This document shows, in pieces, positions 6,937-63,740 of a stretch of DNA of 64,000 nucleotides. Both the position numbers and the translations under genes were made by a program. The notes beneath the pieces are model-generated. The model was not told the DNA's origin. It made no database searches and worked only from the letters and a program-made list of their open reading frames with translations. The stretch comes from an uncultured Eubacteriales bacterium (lineage in GTDB: Bacteria; Bacillota; Clostridia; Oscillospirales; Oscillospiraceae). Position 1 is the stretch's first letter. Every line of letters begins with the position of its first letter. The DNA is taken from assembly GCA_900319635.1 (NCBI GenBank), contig ONPF01000006.1:22133-86132 (forward strand), read 5' to 3'.

Positions 6937-8397
6937 ATGGATAATCGAAGCAAGGTAGTCAGCAATTTGATATGGCGCTTTTTCGAGCGTTTCGGCGCCC
7001 AGGCGGTGAACATCGTGGTGGGCATCGTCCTGGCCCGCAAGCTGGGCCCCGGCCCCGCCGGGGACATCGCGGTGATCCTGGCGGTGATCACGATCCTCCG
7101 GGTCTTTGCCGACAGCGGCATGGGCAACGCCCTCATCCAGAAGAAGGATCCGGACGATACGGACTTTTCCTCCGTGTTCTTCTTTAACCTGGGCTTCAGC
7201 CTGATCCTCTACGCGGCGCTGTTTCTGGCGGCGCCCTGGATCTCCGGGATCTACGGAAATGCGGACTATGTGCCCATTCTGCGGGTGCTGGGGCTGCTGG
7301 TGGTGGTGTCGGGGCTCTTTAACGTGCAGCAGGCCTATGTGGCCAAGACCATGCAGTTCAAGCGCTTCTTCTTCGCCACCCTGGGCGGTACCCTGGCCTC
7401 CTGCGTGCTGAGCATCGCCATGGCCTACTGGGGCTACGGGATCTGGGCGCTGGTGGCGCTGCACCTGGTCAGCTACGCGGTGAACACGGCCATCCTCTGG
7501 TTCACGGTGGACTGGCGCCCCCGGCGGCTGTTTTCCTTCGGGCGGCTCAAAGGGCTGCTGGCCTACGGCTGGAAGCTGCTGGCCGCCTCCTTCCTGGATA
7601 CGGTCTATCTGCAGCTCTACCCCCTGCTCATCGGCGCCCGCTTTCCCAAGGAGGAGCTGGGACAGTTTGACAAGGGGCGCAACTGGCCGGATCAGATCAC
7701 CCAGAGCATCAACGCCTCCATCGACGGGGTGCTGCTGCCGGTGCTCTCCGCCGAGCAGGACGACAAGCATCGGGTGCGGGAGATGACCCGCCGCGCCATC
7801 AAGACCAGTTCCTTTGTGATGATGCCGCTGATGGCGGGGCTGGCCGTCTGCGCCCAGCCTCTGGTGCACCTGCTGCTGGGGGAGGAGTGGATGCCCTGTG
7901 TGCCCTTCCTGCAGATCTTCTGCGTGATCTACGCCTTCTACCCCCTGCACACCGCGAACCTCAACGCCATCAAGGCCATGGGGCGCAGCGACGTGTTTCT
8001 GGTGCTGGAGATCCTGAAAAAGCTGGTGGAGACGGGGGCGCTGCTCATCACGCTGCGCTACGGCGTCTTTGCCATGGCGCTGGGACAGCTGGTTTCCAGT
8101 GTTCTCGCCCAGATCATCAACGCCTGGCCCAACCGGAAGCTGCTGGACTATCCCTATCTGCGGCAGCTTCTGGATCTGCTGCCGGCACTGCTGCTCTCCG
8201 CCGCCATGGGCGCGGCGGTCTGGACGGTGACCCGGCTGGGCCTTTCCGATATTCTGACCCTGCTGATCCAGGTGCCCCTGGGCGCTTTGCTCTATGTGCT
8301 GGGCTCCTGGCTAATGAAGCTGGAAAGCTTCACATTCCTGCTCTCGACTGCGAAAAAGATGCTGCACCGCAGCACGGAAGGAGAAAACCATGGCTGA
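6937..8397 (+). CDS. Lipopolysaccharide/polysaccharide flippase (MOP superfamily)
   Basis: A 486-aa polytopic membrane protein of the PST/Wzx-like branch of the MOP exporters, which move lipid-linked oligosaccharides across the membrane. About 12-14 hydrophobic segments are visible. The N-terminal WRFFERFGAQAVNIVVGIVLARKLGPG is characteristic, as is FADSGMGNALIQKKDPDDTDFSSVFFFN (family region near residues 54-81). It lies between a glycosyltransferase and an ATP-grasp protein and overlaps the latter by 8 bases, which supports a single transcript. Confidence 0.9.
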   Translation: MDNRSKVVSNLIWRFFERFGAQAVNIVVGIVLARKLGPGPAGDIAVILAVITILRVFADSGMGNALIQKKDPDDTDFSSVFFFNLGFSLILYAALFLAAPWISGIYGNADYVPILRVLGLLVVVSGLFNVQQAYVAKTMQFKRFFFATLGGTLASCVLSIAMAYWGYGIWALVALHLVSYAVNTAILWFTVDWRPRRLFSFGRLKGLLAYGWKLLAASFLDTVYLQLYPLLIGARFPKEELGQFDKGRNWPDQITQSINASIDGVLLPVLSAEQDDKHRVREMTRRAIKTSSFVMMPLMAGLAVCAQPLVHLLLGEEWMPCVPFLQIFCVIYAFYPLHTANLNAIKAMGRSDVFLVLEILKKLVETGALLITLRYGVFAMALGQLVSSVLAQIINAWPNRKLLDYPYLRQLLDLLPALLLSAAMGAAVWTVTRLGLSDILTLLIQVPLGALLYVLGSWLMKLESFTFLLSTAKKMLHRSTEGENHG

Positions 8398-57038: not shown

Positions 57039-59612
57039 ATGCAAAACGAGATCCGCATTTCCACCGGCATCGAGGGTCTGGACAAGACCCTGGACTATCT
57101 GCGCCCGGGCGACACCGTCACCTGGCAGATGGCCAGCATCGGGGATTTTGTGTTCATTGCCACCCAGTTTGTCACCCACATCGCCCTCACCGGGCGGCGC
57201 ATCGCGTATCTGCGCTTCGGCCGCCACGCCGAGGTGGTGCCCACCGAGGCCCTGGCCCGCCGGGGCGCCAACATCCGCCAGTATGACCTGGACCCGGTGG
57301 TGGGCTTTGAGACCTTCGCCGTCCAGGTGCACCGGATCATCCAGGAGGAGCCGGAGGACGCCTTTTTCCTCTTCGACTGCCTGTCCGACCTGCAGAAGTA
57401 CTGGTTTTCGGACCACATGGTCTGCAACTTTTTCTGCCTGACGGCCGAATTTTTGCGGGAGCGGCGGGCCATCGCCTACATCCCCCTGCGCTATGAGCGC
57501 CACACCTACGAGACCATCTCCCGCATCCGCCACGCCACAAACGTGCTGCTGAACATCCGTACCCTGGAGGGGCGCAGCTACATCCACGCCGTGAAGGTGG
57601 ACGGGCGCCGCACCCCCACCATGTACTTCCCCCTGATGGTGGACGGCAGCCACAGCCGGGTGCTCTCCTCCAGCGCCGAGACCTACGCCATTTTCGACAT
57701 CTTTACCCAGACCGGCGAACACCGGGACTGCTGGGACAGCATGTTCGACTCGGTGGAGGCCGGCAGCGCCGAGCCCACCGACGCCGACGGCATGGCGCTG
57801 AAGGAAAACATCCTCCGCTGCCTCCTTGGCACCGAGCCCCAGCGGCTGGAGCTCTGCCGGCAGCACTTCACCGTGCAGGATCTGATGGAGATCAAGAAGC
57901 GGGAGATCGGCACCGGCTGCATCGGCGGCAAATCCGTGGGTATGCTGCTGGCCCGCAACATCATCCGCGACACGGATCCCGAGCTCTACGCCCGGCGCAT
58001 CGAGCCCCATGACTCCTACTTCATCGGGGCGGACGTGTTCTACACCTACGCCGTGCAGAACAACACCTGGGAGCTGCGCACCAAGATGGAAAAGCCCGAG
58101 GACTACATCCGCCTGGCGCCGGAGCTGCACGAGCGGCTGCTGCACGGCAAGTTCTCCCACAACATCAAGGAGCAGTTCCGCTCCATGCTGGAATACTTCG
58201 GCCAGTCCCCCATCATCGTCCGCTCCAGCTCCATTCTGGAGGACGGTATCGGCAACGCCTTCGCCGGGAAGTACGACAGCGTCTTCTGCCCCAACCAGGG
58301 CAGCCCCGAGGAGCGCTATGAGGAGTTTGAAAACGCCGTGCGCACCGTCTACGCCAGCACCGCCAGCGTGGACGCCATCCGCTACCGGGCCGACCGGAAG
58401 CTGCTGGATCGGGACGAGCAGATGGCGCTGCTGGTCATGCGCGTCAGCGGCGACTGTCACGGGGACTACTACTTCCCCCACGCCGCCGGCGTGGGACACA
58501 GCCGCAACCTCTACGTCATGGGCAGCAAGGACAAGGAGGACAACAGCGGCATGCTCCGCCTGGTCTTCGGCATGGGCACCCGGGCCGTGGACCGGGAGGC
58601 CGACGACTACGCCCGCTTCATCCGCCTGGACGACCCCACCGCGCCGCCCATGGTGGCCTACGGGGAGGAGTACCGCTACAGCCAGCACAAGGTGGACGTG
58701 ATCGACCTGCGCCAAAACACCTTCACCACCGTGCCCCTGGAGAAGCTGGACAAGCGCGCCATGCACACCGACCCCGGTCTCTTCCTGGAGCCGGACTACG
58801 CCGCCGCGGCCCGCTTCCGGGAGTGGGGGCTCTATAACGAGCCGGTGCCCGACATTCTGAACTTCCAGAAGCTGCTGAAGCGCACGGATTTTGCCGCGGT
58901 GATGAAGCGGATCATGGCCCTTGTGTCGGAGGCCTACCGCTACCCGGTGGACATCGAATACGCCTGCAACTTCACCCCCGACGGGGAGTACCGGGTGAAC
59001 CTGCTCCAGTGCCGCACCATCCAGACCCGGGGTCTGGGGCAGGCCGGCGTCATGCCCAAGGTGCGGGACTTCTTCTGGCACATCAAGGGCAATTTCATGG
59101 GCGGCAACTCCTGCATCCCCGTGCGCCATGTGGTCTTCGTAAAGGTGGAGCCCTATCTGGACCTGCCGGAGCAGCGCAAGTACCAGGTGGCGCGGCAGAT
59201 CGGGGTGCTGAACGAAAAGCTGCGGGATGAAAACGCCATTCTGCTTGGCCCCGGCCGCTGGGGCACCACCACGCCGAGCCTGGGCGTGCCGGTGGGCTTT
59301 GCGGAGATCAACCGCTTCGCCTGTATCTGCGAGCTGGCCTACCGCTCCCACGGCCTGCGGCCGGAGCTGAGCTACGGCAGCCACTTCTTCCAGGATCTGG
59401 TGGAGTCCGGCATCTTCTACGCCGCCATCTACCAGGGCGAGGAGGGCTGCGAGTTTGACGAGAGTCTCTTCGACGCCTGCCCCGACCGCTATAAGGAGCT
59501 GACCGGGGACGAGCTCTTCGAGGGCGTCATCCGGGTCTGCGACCTGCGGGATCGGGAGGCGATCCTCTACGCGGAGATGGGCAGCCAGGACTGCTTCCTG
59601 GGCGGGCTGTGA
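57039..59612 (+). CDS. KaiC-like domain fused to a PEP/pyruvate-binding (PPDK_N) domain
   Basis: An 857-aa protein. Residues 1-200 start with RISTGIEGLDKTLDYLRPGDTVTWQ, a KaiC/RecA-like fold, but the Walker A position reads MASIGDFVFIA instead of GxxGxGKT, so ATP binding there is doubtful; LFDCLSDLQ corresponds to Walker B. From about 300 the PPDK_N domain follows: GTGCIGGKSVGMLLARNI, SPIIVRSSSILEDGIGNAFAGKYDSVF and, further on, CQ/RT segments. The phosphohistidine swivel and C-terminal TIM-barrel of PEP synthase or PPDK are not seen. Function unknown; a regulatory phosphotransfer protein is possible. Confidence 0.82.
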   Translation: MQNEIRISTGIEGLDKTLDYLRPGDTVTWQMASIGDFVFIATQFVTHIALTGRRIAYLRFGRHAEVVPTEALARRGANIRQYDLDPVVGFETFAVQVHRIIQEEPEDAFFLFDCLSDLQKYWFSDHMVCNFFCLTAEFLRERRAIAYIPLRYERHTYETISRIRHATNVLLNIRTLEGRSYIHAVKVDGRRTPTMYFPLMVDGSHSRVLSSSAETYAIFDIFTQTGEHRDCWDSMFDSVEAGSAEPTDADGMALKENILRCLLGTEPQRLELCRQHFTVQDLMEIKKREIGTGCIGGKSVGMLLARNIIRDTDPELYARRIEPHDSYFIGADVFYTYAVQNNTWELRTKMEKPEDYIRLAPELHERLLHGKFSHNIKEQFRSMLEYFGQSPIIVRSSSILEDGIGNAFAGKYDSVFCPNQGSPEERYEEFENAVRTVYASTASVDAIRYRADRKLLDRDEQMALLVMRVSGDCHGDYYFPHAAGVGHSRNLYVMGSKDKEDNSGMLRLVFGMGTRAVDREADDYARFIRLDDPTAPPMVAYGEEYRYSQHKVDVIDLRQNTFTTVPLEKLDKRAMHTDPGLFLEPDYAAAARFREWGLYNEPVPDILNFQKLLKRTDFAAVMKRIMALVSEAYRYPVDIEYACNFTPDGEYRVNLLQCRTIQTRGLGQAGVMPKVRDFFWHIKGNFMGGNSCIPVRHVVFVKVEPYLDLPEQRKYQVARQIGVLNEKLRDENAILLGPGRWGTTTPSLGVPVGFAEINRFACICELAYRSHGLRPELSYGSHFFQDLVESGIFYAAIYQGEEGCEFDESLFDACPDRYKELTGDELFEGVIRVCDLRDREAILYAEMGSQDCFLGGL

Positions 59613-59646
59613 TCTTTGTCTGTATAATCTGTATAATAAGTATAAC

Positions 59647-59690
59647 TTCGACCCGAGGGCTTCACGCAGAAGCCTTCGGGTCGAATTTTA
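59647..59690. terminator. Terminator between the KaiC-like fusion and the two-component operon
   Basis: A 17-bp stem TTCGACCCGAGGGCTTC / GAAGCCTTCGGGTCGAA (one G-T pair), followed by TTTTAT on the + strand; on the minus strand it is followed by an A/T-rich GTTATACTTATT. It serves both convergent genes. Confidence 0.88.
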
Positions 59691-59705
59691 TATCGTCCTG
59701 TTCTT

Positions 59706-60410
59706 TCAGCGGTAGCGGGCAAAGAAGCGGCCGCGCGCGTCGTCGCGGAAACTGCGGCTGATGGGGATGCGGCTGCCGTCCTCCAGGAGGAAGGTATCCC
59801 GCTCCAGGCCGACGATCCCGGCCTCGTTGACCCAATAGCCCTGATGGCAGCGCACAAAGCCCGCGGCGAGGTCGCCGGAGAGGAGCTCCGCCGGGCGGCG
59901 GGAGGAGTAAAGCACGCCCGTGCGCGTCACGATCTGCGCCTTGCGCCCCACCCGGCTCAGATACAGGATCTCCCCCAGGGGGATCCGGAGCGTCTCGCTC
60001 CTGCTTTTCAGCAGCAGCACTGCCTCGTCCTTCTTCTCCGCCGCGTCCAGCGCGCTGCGCAGGGCGCGCCCCATATACTCCTCCATCCGGCTTTTCAGCA
60101 CCATCCAGACATGCCTCGTCTCATAGACCTCGGAGGCATAGTCCGCATAGGCCGTCAGAAACACGATCCGGCAGGCGGGCGTCAGCCGGTTCAGCTCCTT
60201 CGCCAGCGCAATGCCGTTTTGCTGCTCCATCTCGATATCCAGGATCGCGACGTCCGGGGCATAACCCGTCTCCCGGACGCGCTGCAGCAGCGCCGCCGCG
60301 TCCGAAAAGCCCTCGATGGAGGGGTGCAGCTCCGCAAGCTCCTGCGCCGCCACTTGGGCGGCATGGGCCAGGTGCAGCGGATTATCGTCACAGATCGCGA
60401 TTTGCAGCAT
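59706..60410 (-). CDS. LytTR-family response regulator
   Basis: A 234-aa response regulator. The receiver domain has Asp8/Asp9, the phospho-acceptor Asp58 in VAILDIEME, Thr/Ala FLTAYAD and Lys in MVLKS. The C-terminal LytTR DNA-binding domain runs from about 130 (LRIPLGEILYLSRVGRKAQIVTRTG...FVRCHQGYWVNEAGIVGLERDTFLLEDGSRIPISRSF). This is an AgrA/LytR-like regulator. Its start overlaps the end of the ATPase-carrying sensor gene by 23 bases; it is the last gene of a three-gene operon. Confidence 0.92.
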   Translation of the reverse strand: MLQIAICDDNPLHLAHAAQVAAQELAELHPSIEGFSDAAALLQRVRETGYAPDVAILDIEMEQQNGIALAKELNRLTPACRIVFLTAYADYASEVYETRHVWMVLKSRMEEYMGRALRSALDAAEKKDEAVLLLKSRSETLRIPLGEILYLSRVGRKAQIVTRTGVLYSSRRPAELLSGDLAAGFVRCHQGYWVNEAGIVGLERDTFLLEDGSRIPISRSFRDDARGRFFARYR

Positions 60411-61704
60411 GGTCTGCCTCCTCTTTCAAAATGAGAGACGCGCGGAACAGGCCGTCGGCGGCCTCCGCTTGAAATGCGCCGTCATATTTTTCCGCAAGGC
60501 TCCGCAGGATCGCGGTGCCCACGCCCCGCTCCAGCTGCGGGATCCGGCGCGCCTTGCGCCGCCGAGCCGCCGGAAGCGGGTTTTTCGTTTCAATGCTCAG
60601 ATAGGGCGGGGTAAAGGCGGCGCGCAGGAAAAGGCTTTTCTCTTCCGCTCCCGCGCAGGCCTCCGCCGCATTGTCCAGAAGATTGCCGAAGGCGCAGATC
60701 AGATCCGTGTTGGAGACGCCGAGCCGCGCCGGCAGGTGCAGCTCCCACTGCAGGGCGACGCCTGCCGCGGACAGCTCCTCCGCCCGGTGGCGCAGGAAGC
60801 TCGCCGCCACCGTATGCTCGCAGCCTGCGATCTGATCCGCGCCGCGGCCATGGCTTTGTTGGAGACTGCCCGCGCAGCGCGCGGCCTCGTCCCCCCTTCC
60901 TTCCTGCAGAAGCCGCTCTATCGTCTCCGACTGGGCGATGACGCCCTCCCGCAGGGCGCGGATCTGCTCCCGCCGGGCGGCCAGGCTCTCCCCATAGGCG
61001 GCCTGCGCCTGCATCTGCTGCTCCAGATATCGGTTTTGAGCCCGCAGCTCCGCGCTTTTGGCCGTGGCGCTCATGGCCGCGGCCAGTCCCGCGTCCGCTG
61101 CGACGCAGAAGAGCACCGCCAGGAAGGTGTAGCCTGTGTCGGGCAGCACCCCCTCCGAGACGATCGGGCGGAACCAGACGATCAGAAGCAAAAGCTGGCT
61201 GGCCGGAAACAGCAGGAACAGCAGCGGCAGGGAGGCCGCCAGCTCCTCGGCGTGCCTGCGCTGCAGGCGACGGCCCAGGATCACCAGCGCCGCCAACAGC
61301 AGCGCCTGGCTGAACAGATAGGGGGCATAGACGATCGGCGGATAGGCGAAGGTTTCGCTCTCGAGTCCGGTGCGAAACTGCTCCGGCGGGACAAGGCTGG
61401 CCGTCAGATACTCCGACAGCATCAACATCATCATGACCAGAAAAACCACCAGGAGCTTGCGGTACCAGCGGCCGCGGTACAGCAGCAGCACCAGAACCAG
61501 GAAGGTCAGCATGACCAGAAGGGTTCTTGCCGCGGAGACATAGGAGGTCAGGCGCATGGTCAGCCAGAAGGTCGGGAAAAAGCTCGCAAGCTCGATCCCC
61601 AGTGTCCAGGCCAGGGAGAGCTTCCGCTCCAGCAGAAGATGGACGGCGGCAAACCACATGCCGTAGCACACCAGGTTGACCGCGAAGACAGCAATACCGC
61701 TCAT
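60388..61704 (-). CDS. Sensor kinase with GHKL ATPase but Glu in place of the phospho-acceptor His
   Basis: A 438-aa protein. Six to seven hydrophobic segments (about 1-215), then a coiled DHp-like part where AgrC relatives have LRHDLxNHL; here it reads LREGVIAQSETI, so the acceptor is Glu253 and the following NH pair is also lost. The GHKL ATPase domain is complete: LICAFGNLLDNAAEA (N-box, Asn341/Asn345), ETKNPL, ERGVGTAILRSLAEKYDG (G-box). Its ATG overlaps the stop of the upstream paralogue (ATGA). It probably phosphorylates the His of that partner in trans. Confidence 0.85.
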   Translation of the reverse strand: MSGIAVFAVNLVCYGMWFAAVHLLLERKLSLAWTLGIELASFFPTFWLTMRLTSYVSAARTLLVMLTFLVLVLLLYRGRWYRKLLVVFLVMMMLMLSEYLTASLVPPEQFRTGLESETFAYPPIVYAPYLFSQALLLAALVILGRRLQRRHAEELAASLPLLFLLFPASQLLLLIVWFRPIVSEGVLPDTGYTFLAVLFCVAADAGLAAAMSATAKSAELRAQNRYLEQQMQAQAAYGESLAARREQIRALREGVIAQSETIERLLQEGRGDEAARCAGSLQQSHGRGADQIAGCEHTVAASFLRHRAEELSAAGVALQWELHLPARLGVSNTDLICAFGNLLDNAAEACAGAEEKSLFLRAAFTPPYLSIETKNPLPAARRRKARRIPQLERGVGTAILRSLAEKYDGAFQAEAADGLFRASLILKEEADHAANRDL

Positions 61705-62594
61705 ACTTCCTCCTCTTCCAGGAGCGCGGCCTGCTCGGTCTGCGCGAGAGCCGCGGCATAGCGGGCAGCCTCCTCCGGCTCTCCATCCGCGATCAGGATG
61801 CGAATGGTATAAAGGTGGTTGTCCAGATCGTGCCGGAGGCGGCGAAGCTGCTCATACTGTCCGGCCAGCGCCTTATAATAGGCGCTTTGCGCGCTGATCT
61901 GCCCCTCCAAAAGCCGGTTGCGAGCCTGCAGCTCTGCCGCCCGGAAGATAAAGTGCATCGCCACGGCAAGCCCCAGATCCGCCAGGGCGCAGAACAAAAC
62001 GGCCAGGAGGATGACCTGCGGCCGCACCAGAAGTCCGCCCCGGGAAAGAGGCAGAAACAGCCCCGCCAGCAGCAAAAGCTGGCTGAGCGGAAACAGCAGG
62101 AACAGCAGCGTCTGTCCGGATCCGGCAGCGCGGGAATGCAGCCGCCCAAGCACCCGGCCCACCAGCACCAGCCCCGCCAGCAGCAGCGCCTGGCAAAAGA
62201 GATAGAGCGCGTACCACAGCGCCTGATACTCGTAGCGTCCGCTCCGGATCCCGCTCTGGAGCTGCTCCGGCGGGACAATGACCGCCGTCAGATATTCCGA
62301 GAGCAGCATCACGACCATGACAAGGAAAACCAACAGGAGCTTTAGATACCAGCGGCCACGGTACAGCAGCAGCGCGGTCAGCGCAACAAAGCCCGTCCCA
62401 AGCAGCAGGCGAAGCACCGTTATGTTGTCGGAGAGTGCGGTCGTGAGAAAGAAATACGGAAAAAACGACAGCAGCACAAAGAAAACGGTGTGCAGCACAG
62501 GATATTTTCGGGGCAGCAGCAGCCCAAGGGCGGCAAACCACATGCAGTAGCAGATAAAATTGGCGATTACAACTTGTATGGGCATCCTTGCCAT
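61701..62594 (-). CDS. Membrane sensor with phospho-acceptor His but no ATPase domain
   Basis: A 297-aa paralogue of the downstream kinase. The membrane part is clearly similar (YRGRWYLKLLLVFLVMVVMLLSEYLTA versus YRGRWYRKLLVVFLVMMMLMLSEYLTA). The DHp region has an intact LRRLRHDLDNHLYTIRILI with His255, but the protein ends 42 residues later in LLEEEEV and has no GHKL domain. The end lies exactly where the next gene starts (ATGA), with GAGGAGG for it inside this gene, so it looks like a natural end rather than decay. Confidence 0.82.
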   Translation of the reverse strand: MARMPIQVVIANFICYCMWFAALGLLLPRKYPVLHTVFFVLLSFFPYFFLTTALSDNITVLRLLLGTGFVALTALLLYRGRWYLKLLLVFLVMVVMLLSEYLTAVIVPPEQLQSGIRSGRYEYQALWYALYLFCQALLLAGLVLVGRVLGRLHSRAAGSGQTLLFLLFPLSQLLLLAGLFLPLSRGGLLVRPQVILLAVLFCALADLGLAVAMHFIFRAAELQARNRLLEGQISAQSAYYKALAGQYEQLRRLRHDLDNHLYTIRILIADGEPEEAARYAAALAQTEQAALLEEEEV

Positions 62595-62604
62595 TCTCTC
62601 CTCT

Positions 62605-62639
62605 CTGCGGATTTGACATCAAACGCTGCGGATTCGACA
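62605..62639 (+). promoter_or_regulatory. Candidate LytTR operator: two 14-bp direct repeats 21 bp apart
   Basis: CTGCGGATTTGACA at 62605-62618 and CTGCGGATTCGACA at 62626-62639 differ at one base and are 21 bp apart (two helical turns), the classical AgrA/LytTR tandem-site spacing. A weaker third copy (ACGCGGGGTCGAAA) begins near 62650. They lie upstream of a possible weak -35 and TATGAT at 62670-62675 directed toward the membrane-protein genes, and just before the sensor start on the minus strand. Confidence 0.65.
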
Positions 62640-62669
62640 ACATGGGGCAACGCGGGGTCGAAATCGTGA

Positions 62670-62675
62670 TATGAT
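62670..62675 (+). promoter_or_regulatory. -10 element of a likely activator-dependent promoter
   Basis: TATGAT with no good -35 at the expected place (GCAACG at 62647-62652). Poor -35 plus tandem repeats just upstream is the pattern of LytTR-activated promoters. Confidence 0.5.
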
Positions 62676-62819
62676 GCGGTTAATTGTGCTGCAGGGTTTT
62701 TTCTATCTCACCATACCAAAAGCTTCCGCTGTTTGCAAGAAATATCTTTGTGACAGACGCGGCGTCTTCGTCTGCCGCACAAACGCGTATCTTTATCTGA
62801 TTGGAGAGGAGAAAAGAAA

Positions 62820-63329
62820 ATGGGAAGAACAGTCTTTGAAAAACTCAAGCGGAGCAAGGGAGGGCGTATTTTTCTGCGCCTGCTGCCCCTGCTGGGCGTC
62901 GTGCTGGTGATCCTGATCTTCGAGCTGGTCGAAAGCGCGCACGTAAATGCCGCCAAGCCAAAGGGCCCGGAGGTGGAGTATAGCGAAGACCTGGAAGAAA
63001 AACGACTGTGCTACTTCGATGTGTCCCAGATCGAGCCGGTCTATGCCATCTCCTTTTCCACCGGCGTGAGCCCGAGCAACCTCGTCTGCAAGTGCTATAC
63101 ACCGGACGGCCGGGTGGTATGGCTGTCCATCAAGCCGGGCGACTATAAGACGAACTTTGACGCGACCGCCAGATTTGGCTACAACGCCTCGTTCCAGACC
63201 CTTTATCCGAAAAACATCCGGATCCACGGCTATACCCGCGCCGCTGATAAGGTTGACGACAGTCTGAGCTATAAGACCGGCGCGGAAACCGTCGTGGAGT
63301 TCCAGAGCGTCAGCAAAACCGGCTCCTGA
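62820..63329 (+). CDS. Hypothetical single-pass extracytoplasmic protein
   Basis: A 169-aa protein not recognised. An N-terminal basic stretch precedes a membrane helix (about residues 18-36, FLRLLPLLGVVLVILIFELV), and a soluble part follows with CYFDVSQIEPVYAISFSTGVSPSNLVCKCYTPDGRVVWLSI. Cysteines lie at 64, 90 and 92, so a disulfide is possible. GGAGAGGAG precedes the start. First gene downstream of the proposed LytTR operator. Confidence 0.72.
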   Translation: MGRTVFEKLKRSKGGRIFLRLLPLLGVVLVILIFELVESAHVNAAKPKGPEVEYSEDLEEKRLCYFDVSQIEPVYAISFSTGVSPSNLVCKCYTPDGRVVWLSIKPGDYKTNFDATARFGYNASFQTLYPKNIRIHGYTRAADKVDDSLSYKTGAETVVEFQSVSKTGS

Positions 63330-63398: not shown

Positions 63399-63740
63399 AT
63401 GAACGAGAACAACAACACCCCCACGCCCGGACTGAAGCCCACGCAGAACGCAAGCCCCTCCATGGGAATGAGCCCAACCAGGATCATCGGCCTGATCCTT
63501 TTGATCGGCGGATGTCTGGTACTGGTGTATCTTCTGTATAAATGGCGTTTTCTGGTGTTTGGCTCCGTGCCCAGCGGCAGACCCACCGCGGAATATTATG
63601 AGCAGATGTATCTGAAAGAGTATGTAACAATGGATCCGAGCCTTGCCTTTCCGCTGTATTTTTCCGAGTGCGGCTTTGGCTATGCCGGGATCGCCGCGGC
63701 CCTGGGGCTGATTCTTACGCTTGTCGGGAAGAAGAAATAA
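63399..63740 (+). CDS. Hypothetical two-helix membrane protein
   Basis: A 113-aa protein with an Asn/Pro/Thr-rich N-terminus and two membrane segments (about 28-47 and 93-110) that flank a short extracytoplasmic loop with Tyr/Glu-rich residues. No family recognised. It lies 69 bases after the previous gene, with AAGAAAGGAAG upstream. Confidence 0.7.
   Translation: MNENNNTPTPGLKPTQNASPSMGMSPTRIIGLILLIGGCLVLVYLLYKWRFLVFGSVPSGRPTAEYYEQMYLKEYVTMDPSLAFPLYFSECGFGYAGIAAALGLILTLVGKKK

Follow-up and report, generated by a model that had tools for sequence, protein, structure and literature searches.

Complementary halves of an AgrC-type histidine kinase on two tandem paralogues of an Oscillospiraceae operon, and their recurrence within one family

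The division of one kinase activity between two proteins has been described in several bacteria. In group A Streptococcus, FasB and FasC form heterodimers, and no homodimers, by two-hybrid analysis (PMC12675982, 2025). FasC requires His246, its ATPase domain is dispensable, and a construct of residues 1-286, comprising the transmembrane region and the dimerization and histidine phosphotransfer (DHp) helices, complements fully (PMC12675982). In the available sections of that article, the authors propose that FasB phosphorylates FasC, which they term a pseudokinase, and they do not rule out phosphorylation within FasB. For CheA3 and CheA4 of Rhodobacter sphaeroides, the accessible text of two articles reports that neither is active alone, that the ATPase half phosphorylates the His half, that duplication and loss were the proposed origin, and that the detached His half doubles as the main phosphatase, with ultrasensitivity in models (PMC3591291, PMC10542144). 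In Synechocystis, the Hpt and the catalytic and ATP-binding (CA) domains reside on different proteins, Hik36 and Hik43 (PilL-N/PilL-C), according to the part of the source available (PMC7656254). Here, we describe a membrane-bound counterpart of these arrangements, in which two tandem paralogues carry complementary halves of an AgrC-type kinase beside a LytTR response regulator. The locus lies in a stretch of 64,000 nucleotides (the window) from an uncultured Eubacteriales bacterium of the Oscillospiraceae (assembly GCA_900319635.1, contig ONPF01000006.1, positions 22,133 to 86,132).

Complementary kinase halves in a probable operon

Three overlapping genes on the minus strand of the window make up the locus. 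The His half, P0001 (61701..62594, 297 residues), is a multi-transmembrane sensor with a coiled coil and a DHp hairpin that carries the motif RHDLDNHL, and its stop codon follows right after the second DHp helix. The candidate phospho-acceptor is His255, and 42 residues remain C-terminal of it. Pfam found no ATPase domain in this protein; the sole match was to the DHp-type family SPOB_a, at 241-279 and below the cut-off. The ATPase half, P0002 (60388..61704, 438 residues), has a transmembrane region like that of P0001 and DHp-like helices in which REGVIAQS places Glu253 at the position matching the His motif. Its HATPase_c_5/GHKL domain is intact (PF14501 at 332-426, 34.5 bits versus a cut-off of 22; the HATPase_c_5 scores of P0007 and P0009 are 26.4 and 46.7 bits). 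The two proteins are 48-49% identical across the shared part. AgrC/HPK10-type kinases are recognized by a His motif of the HDxxNH type and an ATPase domain on the same polypeptide; here, P0001 has the motif only and P0002 the ATPase only. No Hpt (P1) or CheW (P5) domain matched either protein in Pfam at E values up to 1.

The response regulator, P0003 (59706..60410, 234 residues), has receiver (PF00072) and LytTR DNA-binding (PF04397) domains that both score above the Pfam cut-offs, and retains the receiver residues Asp58, Thr86, and Lys106. It is 42-55% identical to the regulators of the related loci in genomes G010, G184, G047, and G091 (G and L numbers denote genomes and fetched loci, and G000 is the window genome). 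The stop codon of P0001 and the start codon of P0002 share an ATGA (61701..61704), and the end of P0002 overlaps P0003 by 23 nucleotides. These overlaps point to a single operon, in which the translation of P0001 and P0002 would be coupled through the ATGA. GC content by codon position is gene-like in all three genes. The initial annotation, made from the letters alone, had described this anatomy: a membrane protein with an intact His motif and no ATPase, a paralogue with GHKL domain and Glu253, their ATGA overlap, and the LytTR regulator. Each element was recovered. The frameshift that might have joined an ATPase domain to the first gene was ruled out, since the downstream frame has its own complete transmembrane and DHp region.

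Structural comparison places the ATPase half close to AgrC. The AlphaFold2 models have middling mean predicted local distance difference test (pLDDT) values, 65.4 for P0001 and 61.6 for P0002, and only the ATPase domain and the DHp hairpin were used. In the P0001 model, the C-terminal helices 192-269 and 273-296 form a DHp hairpin, with block-mean pLDDT of 78-92 over residues 221-290; in the P0002 model, the ATPase fold has block-mean values mostly about 80. A profile of four ATPase halves retrieved AgrC as the nearest solved structures (6e52, E value of 1.8e-6, and 4bxi), and a fold search with the ATPase half put AgrC 6e95 and 6e52 on top, with 4bxi at a TMt of 0.78. The window genome, which is 91.7% complete, has one PF14501 match at E values up to 1e-6 (7/7 candidates scored), which is presumably P0002 itself. 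Given this single match, no second kinase of the class was seen to stand in.

In this kinase class, the transmembrane, coiled-coil, and DHp helices form the dimer. Since P0002 lacks the normal acceptor, P0001 lacks an ATP-binding domain, and both have the homologous helices, a heterodimer is the simplest working unit. We consider it probable that the locus encodes an AgrC-type (HPK10-like) kinase that is an obligate hetero-oligomer, with His255 of P0001 phosphorylated in trans by P0002. P0001 would supply the DHp with the phospho-acceptor and the docking surface for the response regulator, and P0002 the only ATP-binding domain of the system. The two would co-assemble through their homologous helices into a heterodimer or a higher hetero-oligomer, within which the trans phosphorylation would take place. 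Phosphorylated P0001 would then hand its phosphate to Asp58 of P0003, and the phosphorylated regulator would act on a direct repeat at the 5' end of its own operon, giving autoregulation, and possibly on divergent genes too. Assembly, the direction of phosphotransfer, the terms "obligate" and "in trans," and autoregulation are steps that we infer beyond the sequence.

Recurrence and co-occurrence of the halves

P0002 was used to query 102 genomes of the window genus and 400 of its family. The same gene order (DHp, CA, response regulator), here called type A, was also found in G010 (L026), G047 (L027), and G184 (L071), the last of another genus. Identity to P0002 is 53, 27, and 30% for their ATPase halves, and identity to P0001 is 44, 36, and 37% for their His halves, respectively. 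The reading frames are intact in the four genomes, which belong to two genera, the His halves end at a matching place, and all four regulators have both Pfam domains. In the alignment, only the last two or three transmembrane helices are present in the His halves of G010, G047, and G184, the first ones being absent. The motif residues R, H, D, N, and H are invariant in 4/4 His halves. The corresponding motifs of the ATPase halves read REGVIAQS, RRDILDRA, KHSLSEKF, and EADIAGCW, with the His lost in three of the four. Overlaps of 4 nucleotides were found in G010, G047, and G184 as well, and also in G234 and G398, which are described below.

The recurrence bears on whether an error of sequencing or assembly could have cut one gene or merged two. 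The genomes are drafts, which would allow for such errors; however, the type A halves each have their own transmembrane helices, the His halves end alike in four separate genomes, GC content by codon position is gene-like in the three window genes, and an artefact would not recur together with loss of the His in the partner. We regard this explanation as highly improbable.

Profiles of the ATPase half and of the His half, each searched over 400 family genomes, retrieved systems with other gene orders. G343 (L068) has CA (LREGLREQ), DHp, and regulator; G234 (L070) has regulator, two copies of the His half, and CA (RQDYNRHL); and G338 (L116) has CA (LQSEYDAL), regulator, and DHp. In G413 (L069), of the same genus as G343, CA (LQKELRDR) and DHp are fused in one open reading frame (ORF) of 611 residues, followed by an intact regulator; no hidden transmembrane helix or frameshift was found in the other frames at the junction. 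With the type A pair present in three genomes besides G000 and different pairs in other lineages, the arrangement is more than chance. In the genera of G343 (10 genomes), G234 (121), and G184 (9), no new split pairs appeared among the matches listed at the thresholds used. An order-wide search of 360 genomes yielded G850, of another family.

For a census, a hidden Markov model trained on the kinases of the fetched loci was applied to the ORFs of loci L001-L210. This gave 158 distinct ORF sequences with both a DHp His and an ATPase (cuts at locus ends may count twice), 6 separate His-less ATPase proteins plus 1 fused (G413), and 13 DHp-only ORFs, among them 3 truncated by a locus end and 1 (L127) that reads as a kinase with a frameshift. 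A further 6 ORFs have an ATPase domain but match no DHp and were excluded from the co-occurrence count: L127, L092 (a locus-end cut of the G338 ATPase half), L158 (a locus-end cut), L106 and L208 (longer proteins, differently arranged), and L015 (a fragment close to a contig end, which duplicates part of the G033 kinase). For all six separate His-less ATPase proteins, a same-strand gene with the His but no ATPase lies no more than 1.5 kb away; in the seventh, the two parts are fused. The joint loss that the initial annotation had put forward as a check was thus borne out. Among the 158 complete-type ORFs, an ATPase-less neighbor occurs at three, namely, G047 (type A), G398, and L142, where the neighbor is merely cut by the locus end; 144 of the 158 have at least 400 nucleotides on both sides, and some neighbors may be missed. 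Loci beyond L210 gave no additional His-less kinase.

Short-frame matches to the DHp profile in G460, G166, G137, G203, G378, G748, and G1058 were rejected as splits, an ATPase domain being present, and at the match in G362 no DHp or ATPase ORF passed the motif filter. L127 (G569) was also rejected: it reads as one kinase frameshifted at the start of its ATPase region, and this gene (L127:521-1815), in a single-contig genome of 4.04 Mb, serves as a control for a merely broken kinase. Duplication without splitting was seen in G878, where tandem arrays of four (L246:3576-9020, minus strand) and three (L247:3747-7855, minus strand) complete kinases are near-identical in motif and N-box. Proteins that start with MFCxNCG, zinc-ribbon-like by eye, lie near the DHp-only systems of G234, G338, and G850, in two families of the order (L070:9023-9934, plus strand; L113:1541-2636, minus strand; L242:3625-5271, minus strand). 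They are possibly targets or partners of that regulator branch.

Origins, decay, and competing explanations

The tree of the ATPase region comprised 94 rows, made up of the family-level kinases and every fifth locus of the class-wide sample, with the His-motif columns left out. The type A halves fall in a starred group with the unsplit kinase of G091, apart from the halves of G343, G413, G234, and G338. An approximately unbiased test rejected a single clade of the eight split ATPase halves (p 0.000334) and did not reject the four non-A halves as one clade (p 0.389). There were at least two origins of the split; from gene order and the trees together, our guess would be four. The initial annotation had called such a split unusual; the pattern is wider than it supposed, with more than one independent split. 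In the tree of the transmembrane and DHp region, the His halves of G000 and G010 pair (99/83, starred), their ATPase halves pair (100/98, starred), and all four group together (96/89, starred), so that this duplication predates both species. The three copies in G234 form a group of their own (100/99, starred), which indicates a separate duplication. The trees support the duplication that the initial annotation had proposed, and the pair is probably the product of a complete kinase that was duplicated in tandem, each copy then losing the part that the other kept.

Decay was measured as mean identity to nine unsplit relatives. In DHp helix 1, this identity is 0.40-0.52 for the His halves and 0.18-0.32 for the ATPase halves, versus 0.58-0.72 for the unsplit kinases among themselves. 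In the ATPase domain, the four ATPase halves have 0.46, 0.41, 0.33, and 0.38, versus 0.41-0.51 for the unsplit kinases. These values indicate that both halves drifted, the ATPase halves mainly at the former His function.

Several observations weigh against an obligate kinase built from P0001 and P0002. The ATPase half of G047 keeps its His (KHSLSEKF), with D, N, and the second H gone, and the loss is therefore incomplete. A clade of the four type A ATPase halves without G091 has a support of just 58. Two of the type A ATPase domains (0.33 and 0.38) lie below the unsplit range, and so does DHp helix 1 of the His halves. The initial annotation had named homologous loci with one complete kinase and the other gene absent as evidence to the contrary. 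G091 (L028) is formally such a locus, with both domains on one protein, 40% identity to P0002, and no His half beside it; we read it as the expected unsplit relative. Sampling is a further point: many loci were fetched by similarity to split proteins, and the 7/7 co-occurrence does not come from a random sample. The less biased part is a PF14501 search of 176 class genomes, of which 30 loci and 60 further regions were read among the matches listed. This class-wide sample holds, among those matches, 89 ORFs with His and ATPase, 0 His-less ones, 3 without a DHp match, and 2 that are DHp-only (L127 and L142). Splits are thus rare, and two-halved systems were seen in this family only.

Three of the other systems also count on this side. 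The regulator frame of G343 (L068:3012-3728, minus strand) has one internal stop, and this system may be dying or its sequence may be wrong. In G398 (L105), a regulator and a complete kinase are accompanied by a near-identical kinase copy that stops after the DHp, a tandem that looks like the beginning of a split. In G850, two His halves (L242:5531-7441 and 7649-8086, minus strand) lie beside a regulator that ends after the receiver domain. No ATPase half of this kind was found in the 13 kb read around them, where the lone ATPase domain belongs to a large, unrelated-looking kinase; G850 may hold what is left of such a system, or its His halves may depend on an ATPase partner encoded elsewhere.

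The DHp-only copy of G398, which adjoins a complete kinase, the His halves of G850, and the presence of other complete kinases of the class in G234 would all fit an accessory role of P0002. In that case P0002, as a pseudokinase or ATP sensor, would modulate P0001, which would itself be phosphorylated by another complete kinase of the cell and act as a membrane-bound Spo0B-like relay or phosphate sink. Yet decay in the His-less halves was weaker in the ATPase domain than in the DHp, 7/7 of these halves are paired or fused, and the window genome offers only the one PF14501 match within the E value and completeness given above. We consider the accessory role improbable.

Smaller still, in our judgment, is the chance that one gene of the pair, or both, is a functionless leftover of a tandem duplication. 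G398 as a very recent truncated duplicate, the lack of a nearby ATPase half and the shortened regulator in G850, the internal stop in G343, and the frameshifted kinase of L127 speak in its favor. Against it stand the type A frames, which are intact across two genera and four genomes with identities of 27-53%, the five invariant motif residues in 4/4 His halves, the conserved 4-nucleotide overlaps, the intact regulators (4/4), the upstream repeat that has been kept, and the repeated independent origin.

Upstream repeat, neighboring genes, and comparison with known systems

A direct repeat, GTCGAATCCGCA-N9-GTCAAATCCGCA, lies about 12 nucleotides upstream of the P0001 start (62606..62638, minus strand) and is a candidate LytTR binding site; its 21-bp register is one that fits the direct repeats of LytTR proteins. 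The pattern GTCRAATCYGCA-N9-GYCRAATCYGCA was drawn from G000, G010, and G184, in each of which it occurs once, and G047 and G091 served as independent cases. With up to 3 mismatches, exactly one match per genome was found in 5/5 genomes, always beside the kinase locus (2 mismatches in G047 and 3 in G091), and a reversed-pattern control gave 0 matches. In the four split genomes, the repeat precedes the His half, at about 12 nucleotides from the start in the window, 19 in G010, 13 in G047, and 142 in G184; in the unsplit G091, it lies upstream of the regulator gene. A location this close to the start codon points to feedback on the operon.

The intergenic region that holds the repeat is shared with a divergent gene (62820..63329, plus strand), which encodes 169 residues with one N-terminal hydrophobic stretch (by eye) and has no Pfam match; it is a possible second target. 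The next gene (63399..63740, plus strand; 113 residues, hydrophobic stretches, no Pfam match) has an 85% identical counterpart beside the same kinase pair in G010 (L026:3005-3340), versus 44-53% identity for the kinase halves of the two species, and could be a second target of the regulator. No AgrB/AgrD-like gene was recognized in these two neighbors, which lack Pfam matches; the check for AgrB was confined to them. At the other end, a hairpin of 17 pairs (59647..59685, plus strand), a likely transcription terminator, separates the regulator gene from a convergent gene for a PPDK_N-type ATP-binding protein (PF01326; 56940-59612, plus strand). A sigma-70 promoter scan of 59600-63000 and an Rfam search of 59500-63000 at gathering thresholds each returned 0 matches.

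The wider proposal is one to which we would give even odds. AgrC-type receptors would have been broken repeatedly into an obligately heteromeric form, in no fewer than two lineages of one family, and probably in four. The His subunit could shrink, to two or three transmembrane helices and a DHp hairpin, and could be multiplied, as in the two copies of G234, alongside one His-less ATPase subunit. A free His subunit could act as phosphatase of the regulator, as in CheA3/CheA4, and the subunit ratio and the autoregulatory repeat would then make a tunable switch. The cases described make a plausible evolutionary series, from a complete kinase through a fresh truncated copy and partial motif loss to a full split and a permuted fusion. 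A recurrent split of membrane AgrC-type receptors would be a natural test of trans phosphorylation and of whether one ATPase domain suffices per dimer, and natural material for asking what a bacterium gains from housing the two activities in different proteins whose doses are set independently. It also suggests that annotated degenerate or truncated kinases deserve a check for a partner gene.

Among known systems, the window shares with CheA3/CheA4 and Hik36/Hik43 the placement of phospho-acceptor and ATPase on separate proteins, as do G010, G184, G343, G234, and G338. According to the accessible parts of the sources, CheA3 and CheA4 differ in being of the soluble CheA type, with Hpt (P1) and CheW domains and a chemoreceptor cluster, and, unlike the window system, in lacking a transmembrane sensor, a DHp hairpin of this type, and a LytTR regulator. 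Hik36 and Hik43 are likewise of the CheA type, with genes far apart in the genome, and no duplication with reciprocal loss is described in the available text (PMC7656254). AgrC of Staphylococcus aureus (6e52, 6e95, 4bxi), the nearest solved relative of the ATPase halves, is a membrane receptor with DHp and CA domains and the regulator AgrA; as far as the available descriptions go, it differs in being a complete kinase that acts as a dimer. The "bipartite" kinase of PMC4053972 is not a split kinase, its H/ATP domain being within one protein. Among the papers listed in searches of the open PMC literature, we found no physically split AgrC-type receptor and no repeated origin of one; the split kinases found there are of the CheA type, as far as these sources extend, and FasBC is a heteromer of full-length proteins.

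The closest likeness is to FasB, FasC, and FasA, where, in the available text as in the window, two tandem paralogous HPK10-like proteins share an operon with one regulator (PMC12675982). Both Fas kinases keep transmembrane, DHp, and HATPase regions, unlike the pair described here, in which P0001 is without HATPase and P0002 without the His motif; also unlike FasBC, the split systems here vary in gene order and arose more than once. FasBC is a strong functional precedent for hetero-oligomeric tandem kinases, and P0001, with its transmembrane and DHp architecture, amounts to the natural counterpart of the FasC 1-286 construct (PMC12675982).

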